Shown here: in pieces, positions 321 through 27,734 of the stretch
Layout: each line of letters starts with the position of its first letter
How positions within the stretch are numbered: position 1 is the stretch's first letter
Origin: an uncultured Sulfolobales archaeon
GTDB lineage: Archaea; Thermoproteota; Thermoprotei_A; Sulfolobales; Acidilobaceae
Length of the DNA: 53,167 bases
Direction of reading: 5' to 3'
NCBI GenBank assembly: GCA_937921695.1
Contig: CAKZTZ010000015.1
Span: 1-53,167 of the forward strand
Translations under genes and position numbers: made by a program
Notes under the pieces: generated by a model
Databases searched by the model: none
Told to the model about the DNA's origin: nothing
What the model saw: only the letters and a program-made list of their open reading frames with translations

Positions 321-1322
321 TTAAAAATTAATTTTTATGAAGCCCTCGGCTATAGCCTTTATCAAACTCTCAATGTCAACTATTACGGGGCCTTCAGGAT
401 TTATATATACCTTGATTTCATCGGAAGGGTCTACTTCTATCTCCCTTTCTCCATCTAATGCTACGGTATATGTTTTCTTAGTTCTATTGAAGACTACGAT
501 ATCACCCACTTTATAAATTTTCACGCCGTTCACAGTAATATTCTTCAGCACTCCCGGGCCTGTAAGAGCTCTAAGTTTCAACCCAAAAGAGTCTTCACCT
601 AGACTGAAGTATATAGCTTCATCGCTCTCCATACTAATAGGTTTGATCATGGCTCCAATACTAGCAAGGCCAATACTGGTGGGCTTTGCTATTGAGACTA
701 TAGCCTCTCCGACCCTCTCTACATCGATGACGGCTTTAGAGCCTCGAAACATGTAGTCTGTTAATGCTACATCTACTAGAGCGTGATCTCTAGATTCTCC
801 ATTTATAACAACATCTAGCTTTTTGATTCTAACACTATAATACATGGATGATTCCCTGTTTAAAGCGACTACTCCCGCAGCGAACCCTGCCACGCTTCCA
901 TCAATGAAGTAAGGGACTACGTTATTAGTTCCTGTAGACACGGGTATAAGAGGTGTTTGTTTAGAGACTTTTGAGGCTACCCTCACAGTCCCGTCTCCCC
1001 CTAAAATGATTATGCAGTCAGCATTACGTCTAACCATGTAGTCTACCGATACCAATGTGTCTTCAGGACCTCCCACAGGCTCCATATCGATAAGGTCTAC
1101 GTCGACAGCAATTTTCCCTAGAGCGTCTAAAGTTTTATCAATAATACCGTAAAAATCTGGAGCTAAGATGATTTTATTAACACCTAATCCCTCTAAAACT
1201 TTAACCGCTTTCAGTAAAATGTAGGCTTTCTGATTATTGTCCACAAAGTTAGCATAGGAAGAAAGCCTTCTGATATCCGTGCCTGAGACGGGGTTAACTA
1301 GGATACCAACACTACCTACCAT
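321..1322 (-). CDS. AcoX-like NAD kinase-fold protein
   Basis: 333 aa. The N-terminal NPVSGTDIRRL segment, the GGDGT nucleotide-binding motif of the ATP-NAD kinase fold (about residues 108-112) and the STGTNNVVP segment (about 129-137) are the marks of AcoX, a protein of unknown reaction encoded with acetoin dehydrogenases in bacteria. It is the last of three same-strand genes after the E1 fusion and the lipoyl protein, with a 70-bp gap before it. This context supports a role with the 2-oxoacid/acetoin dehydrogenase. The family is clear; the biochemical function is unknown, including whether it phosphorylates NAD or a diacyl-type substrate. Confidence 0.8.
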   Translation of the reverse strand: MVGSVGILVNPVSGTDIRRLSSYANFVDNNQKAYILLKAVKVLEGLGVNKIILAPDFYGIIDKTLDALGKIAVDVDLIDMEPVGGPEDTLVSVDYMVRRNADCIIILGGDGTVRVASKVSKQTPLIPVSTGTNNVVPYFIDGSVAGFAAGVVALNRESSMYYSVRIKKLDVVINGESRDHALVDVALTDYMFRGSKAVIDVERVGEAIVSIAKPTSIGLASIGAMIKPISMESDEAIYFSLGEDSFGLKLRALTGPGVLKNITVNGVKIYKVGDIVVFNRTKKTYTVALDGEREIEVDPSDEIKVYINPEGPVIVDIESLIKAIAEGFIKINF

Positions 1323-27336: not shown

Positions 27337-27375
27337 ACCTTAAAAACAAACCCCCAAAGAAACCAGCCTAACCCC

Positions 27376-27382
27376 TTATAAA
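27376..27382 (+). promoter_or_regulatory. TATA box of the foldback RNA candidate
   Basis: TTATAAA, centre 27379. The expected start 26-27 bp on is 27405-27406, one or two bases before the 5' arm of the foldback (27407). Few archaeal TATA boxes in this window fit a boundary so precisely. Confidence 0.6.
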
Positions 27383-27404
27383 CCCTACACGCCTAAATAA
27401 CCTT

Positions 27405-27690
27405 GTGGCGGATGCCCCCTAAGCATCCGCGCGGGCACGCTAACCCCAACCCGAGGGGGCTTAAACCCGCGGACGCAACAAGGGGGGCATAGAGTGATAG
27501 AAGAAACCATAAAAGCCCAAGAGACGGCAAACCTCAGGGAGACCCCCTGAGGTAAGCCCTCTCAAGGGCTCTAAGGTTTCTTCTATCACTCTAAACCCCT
27601 CTTAAAGCGTCAACGAGTTTAAGCCCTCTCACCGGGCCCGGGGGGCAAGGTTAGCGTGCTTCTAGAAATGCTTAGGGGGCATCCGCCTCC
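27405..27690 (+). ncRNA. candidate rod-like non-coding RNA, family unknown
   Basis: The whole stretch folds on itself. Helices (5'/3'): 27407-27426/27668-27687 (20 bp, perfect), 27435-27445/27649-27659 (11), 27453-27466/27617-27630 (14, one G-U), 27472-27476/27607-27611 (5), 27481-27485/27596-27600 (5), 27490-27508/27575-27593 (19, perfect), 27514-27518/27566-27570 (5), 27521-27524/27560-27563 (4), 27526-27528/27556-27558 (3), 27532-27539/27545-27552 (8), loop 27540-27544. That is about 94 bp in one rod. Mismatches are confined to discrete internal loops, several symmetric (AA/AA, C/C, AAA/UAA), as in a selected RNA. The 5' arm can also form a local 8-bp hairpin (27408-27415/27423-27430). I find no SRP or RNase P RNA signature. 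A MITE-like inverted repeat is the main alternative. Confidence 0.65.
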
Positions 27691-27734
27691 TATTAATAAT
27701 TGTAAGCTTAAGTGTTCATAGTTTCTTCTCTGTT

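Follow-up and report, generated by a model that had tools for sequence, protein, structure and literature searches.

A predicted structured RNA family of Acidilobaceae with three self-complementary arms and a possible capacity for self-assembly

A long foldback lies between two convergent genes in the chromosome of an uncultured archaeon of the family Acidilobaceae, and the question arises whether it is the gene of a structured RNA, an element acting at the DNA level, or a mobile-element remnant or terminator. It was noticed in the window (the whole stretch of 53,167 nucleotides that was analysed) by a sequence-only reading, which proposed an undescribed non-coding RNA with its own promoter. 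The foldback is real: a rod at 27407–27687 with an apical loop of 5 nt and the reported perfect runs of 20 bp (helix P1, 27407–27426 with 27668–27687) and 19 bp (27490–27508 with 27575–27593) was recovered. The rod form stands, and the pair count changes, since RNAfold predicts 110 bp in the 281 nt rather than about 94 bp. Folded as RNA, the rod has a minimum free energy of -195.6 kcal/mol, and none of 200 shuffled sequences (mean -101.0, sd 5.5) was as good, which corresponds to z of about -17 (-17.1).

No other inverted repeat in the whole 53-kb window matches the rod in strength. A weaker one is located at window positions 1111–1220, with 27-nt arms that are 78% complementary and 56 nt apart. 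Between the stop codon of rps8 (uS8) and the rod lie 70 nt, and on its other side 47 nt separate the rod from the end (3') of the convergent gene of a CitMHS-type transporter. It contains no open reading frame of note, the longest frame wholly inside being 42 aa. Its parts are as follows.

27375..27382, + strand: TATA-like box CTTATAAA of the predicted archaeal promoter (position conserved in 8/8)
27407..27687, + strand: whole rod, predicted transcript, 281 nt (fold z-score -17; orthologues)
27407..27426, + strand: 5' strand of helix P1, 20 bp perfect (fold; covariation)
27427..27434, + strand: arm A, self-complementary CCGCGCGG, at the four-way junction (palindrome in 8/8 homologues)
27435..27445, + strand: 5' strand of helix P2, GCACGCTAACC (covariation)
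27450..27452, + strand: 5' strand of helix P3, CCC, adjoining the three-way junction (covariation)
27453..27508, + strand: 5' strand of the hypervariable middle helix (identity of G001 and G004 at shuffled level, flanking domains 80–97%)
27509..27574, + strand: apical domain with terminal hairpin ACCTCAGGG-AGACC-CCCTGAGGT (fold; homologue comparison)
27575..27630, + strand: 3' strand of the hypervariable middle helix (fold; homologue comparison)
27631, + strand: invariant A directly before arm C
27632..27641, + strand: arm C, bulged hairpin palindrome CCGGGCCCGG, at the three-way junction (palindrome in 8/8)
27642..27644, + strand: 3' strand of helix P3, GGG (covariation)
27649..27659, + strand: 3' strand of helix P2, GGTTAGCGTGC (covariation)
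27660..27667, + strand: arm B, self-complementary TTCTAGAA, at the four-way junction (perfect palindrome in 7/8)
27668..27687, + strand: 3' strand of helix P1 (fold; covariation)

Each of the six genomes that represent the genus in the collection (G000–G005) has the rod directly 3' of rps8; it is 269–295 nt long there and has 110–132 pairs. A sequence pattern made from its 3' arm is found once in each of these genomes and is missing from the 42 remaining genomes of the family. Using the covariance model R1, whose E-values rest on a short calibration, and a looser pattern, further rods were found in other genera. Full rods are present in genus g9 (G013, L144:1501-1808, 308 nt), adjoining an ABC permease gene, and in genus g6 (G010, L161, 349 nt), adjoining a cysteine-synthase-like gene, both neighbours being named by reading their translated frames. 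The comparison set consists of these eight full rods, all from metagenome assemblies of one family, Acidilobaceae; since the variants come from eight species of a single family, the independent changes among them are few.

Incomplete copies adjoin the ABC permease gene in G016 (L158:1-120) and G025 (L156), where contigs break or end near the 3' part of the rod; in both, C and B are intact and the 5' arm is abnormal. They are either degenerate copies or the result of assembly failure at the long hairpin. Synteny with the permease gene of G013 revealed no further full rod adjoining that gene in other genomes. A long rod in G023 (L191, about 1422–1755, reverse complement) carries CCGCGCGG and CCGGGCCCGG, a longer P2, the 6-nt GGGCCC where B sits, and no clear TATA box; it is probably a divergent ninth member.

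In the genus G000–G005, the run of ribosomal protein genes ends after rps8 and the rod is situated at the break (window 27337–27734; L018, L100, L111, L115). In several related genera (e.g. L020, L023, L024), an L6-like frame, read by eye, seems to come after rps8. The rod may mark a rearrangement point.

This distribution bears on two alternatives left by the sequence-only reading. A MITE, a transposon remnant or a giant terminator between convergent genes would suit the inverted-repeat form of the rod and its place between convergent genes in the window, and with MITEs and related inverted-repeat elements it shares the character of an intergenic inverted repeat. However, the rod is single copy in its own genome, and no dispersed copies were found either by the search of that genome or by the covariance-model search of homologues, so that a MITE is excluded; the rod also differs from such elements in its conserved position, orthologous throughout the genus, and in its conserved internal architecture. 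Since the neighbours differ between genera, the rod is an independent unit rather than part of the rps8 operon, and a role as a terminator of that operon is unlikely because the same element stands beside unrelated genes in G013 and G010. Given in addition the module-wise conservation, the compensatory changes and the TATA-like box of its own that are described below, a reading of this kind is scarcely credible.

No RNA family in Rfam accommodates the rod. A search of Rfam 15 gave no match at the gathering score to any of 4227 families, and a relaxed search (E up to 5) returned only weak matches, mostly to precursors of plant and animal miRNA and far under the gathering scores, so that the earlier impression that known families do not fit has now been borne out at both thresholds. 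Archaeal SRP RNA (7S RNA, RF01857) is also a rod-like molecule of about 300 nt with paired ends, but the rod does not match RF01857, and the SRP RNA of the same genome is encoded on another contig (G000:C6:69528-69853). Membership in OLE, GOLLD or ROOL was rejected as well, there being no covariance-model match at the gathering score. An origin from a virus or plasmid was considered and discarded, as the rod has no match in the virus and plasmid sequences searched; three pattern matches in IMG/VR are without any rod. In a limited literature search, no such RNA was found to be described in Desulfurococcales or Acidilobaceae.

The predicted rod structure is shown by covariation. The outer domain is made up of P1, P2, P3 and hairpin C. 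Standard pairs account for 98.8% of its cells, and both sides have changed in 25 of 42 pairs against a mean of 11.8 after shuffling, with none of 500 shuffles as high. When the partners are slid by 1–3 columns, at most 4 such pairs are left. Both sides change in 12 of the 23 alignment pairs of P1 and in 10 of the 13 pairs of P2 (99.2 and 97.4% of cells paired, respectively), and double changes from C-G to U-A are found in P3. The local 8-bp hairpin of the 5' arm (GCGGATGC/GCATCCGC), which had been proposed as a switch, is present as a sequence, but the switching role gains no support from covariation, with 89.6% of cells paired compared with 89.0% after shuffling.

The middle helix behaves in another way. 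When G001 is compared with G004, identity is 94–97% for the outer domain, 80% for the apical domain and 81% for the rps8 gene, whereas that of the middle helix is 50–55%, near the shuffled level of 50. In G004 this helix nevertheless has 45 bp perfectly paired. Its identity in the comparison of G002 with G003 is 96–98%. The perfect long arms reach 51 bp in G002 and 66 bp in G005. The 66-bp perfect duplex of the G005 rod (L100:1977-2271) is unusually long for a chromosomal hairpin. It looks as if the middle helix is swapped as a whole duplex, not by steady drift, although the comparison provides one clear case. Such a replacement as a block between G001 and G004, together with the perfect pairing in G002, in G005 and over 45 bp in G004, might be expected of a guide or defence locus, whose middle helix would be a captured cassette giving double-stranded RNA against foreign or own sequences. 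Nevertheless, the helix has no convincing match, be it as source or as target, in phages or in the host and sister genomes, where the best off-locus match (E 0.0018, 29 nt) belongs to a species other than that of the query, and no nuclease or defence gene was identified as a neighbour of the rod. A guide or defence function is therefore very improbable.

Pairing by itself does not tell RNA from DNA. Isolated helix mismatches comprise 13 G.U and 9 A.C, and all mismatches 40 and 50, respectively; with no clear excess of G.U, the pairing data alone prove neither selection on RNA over DNA nor the strand. The absence of a clear preference for G.U over A.C, the long perfect arms of G002 and G005 and the breaking or ending of contigs near the rod in G016 and G025 would agree with a DNA-level element, that is, a long inverted repeat perfected by arm-to-arm copying and serving as a cruciform, replication or recombination site, for which any RNA would be irrelevant.

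The upstream region speaks against such an element. The first base of the box CTTATAAA is at -32 relative to the rod start 27407, and in all eight full rods a TATA-like box starts 32–35 nt upstream (CTTATAAA, CTTAAAAA, CTTAAAAG, CTTATAAA, CTTATTAA, CTTATTAA, CTTAAATA and TATATATA), those of G004 and G013 having been placed by eye from the sequence where the scoring script favoured another box. The flanks are otherwise poorly conserved, and the downstream flank is not conserved. By archaeal promoter spacing, a TATA box so placed predicts a start at or near the first base of the rod. The rod gene would hence be transcribed from its own TATA promoter, with a start at 27407 or a few bases to either side, and the TATA box proposed earlier at 27376–27382 has been upheld as a TATA-like box at 27375–27382. 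The rod in the window contains no open reading frame of note that a box at this near-constant distance could serve.

The symmetry-breaking features point in the same direction. In every species, A and B are unlike each other and C is confined to a single arm, whereas copying from arm to arm would remove such unpaired features. The sequences of A and B change between genera, which would be hard to follow for a sequence-specific dimeric DNA-binding protein. Because of the predicted promoter and these asymmetries, RNA is favoured over DNA, and a purely DNA-level element is improbable. With orthologues throughout the genus, strong compensatory change, a conserved position of the TATA-like box and no match in Rfam, the proposal of an undescribed structured RNA has gained ground. 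On comparative evidence, the rod represents a predicted structured RNA gene family absent from Rfam and having a new architecture.

This architecture includes elements that the earlier reading missed, namely the palindromes A and B at a flush four-way junction and C in a bulged hairpin. P1 and P2 meet at this junction so that the side segments A (5' strand) and B (3' strand) are the sole unpaired parts, while C is bulged from the 3' strand 18–24 nt further in and is preceded by the invariant A. Along the 5' strand, arms A and C are 18 nt apart in each of the six species of this genus. Arm A is a palindrome in all eight homologues, with four sequences (CCGCGCGG, CTGCGCAG, CCGCTAGCGG and CCACTAGTGG), and arm B is a perfect palindrome in seven, also with four sequences (TTCTAGAA, TTCCGGAA, TTCATGAA and GCTCCGGAGC). 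In G005, arm B is the near-palindrome TTCCAGGAA (TTCC-A-GGAA), whose self-pairing leaves an A.A mismatch at the centre. Arm C is palindromic in all eight, with the sequence CCGGGCCCGG or, in G001 and G004, CGGGGCCCCG. The arms are 8–10 nt long, and the lengths of A and B match (8/8 nt in five species, 8/9 in one and 10/10 in two). Their sequences vary by species and self-complementarity is kept, arm B of G005 being one near-exception.

No palindromes of at least 8 nt other than A, B and C occur in the rods of G000, G003 and G010, nor in that of G002, whose A is lengthened to 12 nt. When 2.08 Mb were scanned on both strands, overlaps included, flush stems around palindrome A were accompanied by a palindromic B in the rods only; about 20 chance flush stems around palindrome A had no palindromic B. 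The central dinucleotide of A switches between CG and TA and that of B between TA, CG and AT. As adjacent central bases are unable to pair in one chain, the maintenance of self-complementarity points to pairing between two copies. For isolated arms, predicted energies are -7.0 to -23.9 kcal/mol for the self-duplex and 0 to -1.6 kcal/mol for the hairpin.

Alternatively, the structured non-coding RNA may act as a monomer. Each of its three arms would then be a minute hairpin, closed by a loop of four bases, that fixes the geometry of the junction or is bound by a protein. A 10-nt palindrome can be folded as 3 bp and a tetraloop (up to -1.6 kcal/mol), arm C is drawn by RNAfold as a 3-bp hairpin, and the odd centre of arm B in G005 suits a 3-bp hairpin with a triloop. 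However, the 8-nt arms allow two pairs only (in B, two A-U) at a predicted 0 kcal/mol, and the central four bases are self-complementary in all variants but one, which a loop would not need. The monomer is, in our opinion, rather unlikely, though it deserves attention.

In contrast to a monomer, a self-assembling RNA would account for the central bases. We infer transcription and oligomerisation of the rod RNA from its sequence; homo-oligomerisation is suggested by the self-complementary switches of the central bases and by the greater predicted stability of the arms as duplexes than as hairpins. It may be concluded, with about an even chance of being right, that the rod encodes a new structured non-coding RNA of Acidilobaceae with its own TATA promoter, which homo-oligomerises via the self-complementary arms A, B and C. 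The RNA would fold into P1, the flush four-way junction with A and B, P2 and the three-way junction with C, beyond which come a long duplex of variable sequence and a conserved hairpin domain at the apex. Its copies would pair A with A, B with B and C with C to form a dimer or a larger complex. The equal lengths of A and B would fit a side-by-side dimer with two helices bridging two molecules, and a chain would also be possible. As to the role of such a complex, the best guess is a scaffold, either structural or for collecting proteins. More tentatively, the rods may be, to our knowledge and by a limited literature search, the first self-assembling archaeal RNA family; two of them would be locked alongside each other in the manner of a double-crossover tile, while the third palindrome extends the complex and the exchangeable duplex acts as a spacer.

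Viroid-like RNAs are rod-shaped and have palindromic segments able to pair between molecules, and the rod is similar to them in both respects; it differs in being chromosomal at a fixed place, with a predicted promoter of its own and no match to a ribozyme family in Rfam. The ornate bacterial RNAs OLE, GOLLD and ROOL form RNA-only homo-oligomers (PMC12286853). The OLE palindrome switches from GGCC to GAUC or AGCU between species, which was taken as support for intermolecular pairing, and this argument for OLE and GOLLD was accompanied by cryo-EM structures of multimers (PMC12286853). Like these RNAs, the rod would be a non-coding RNA that is structured, shows strong covariation and carries symmetric palindromes for self-pairing, which switch between species. 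Unlike them, it is archaeal, 269–349 nt long, and has a flush four-way junction and a variable long duplex, and its oligomerisation is predicted from comparison of sequences.

As far as we know, few new RNA families have been described in archaea apart from guide RNAs, SRP, RNase P and CRISPR, and the natural homo-oligomers of RNA described to date come mainly from bacteria and viruses. It would also be unusual for a perfectly paired helix to be exchanged as a block within a conserved RNA, which raises the question of how both arms of long inverted repeats are renewed. If the proposed self-assembly is true, this small RNA of a thermophile, with its three self-complementary sites that evolve, would offer a simple test of RNA-only assembly in archaea.
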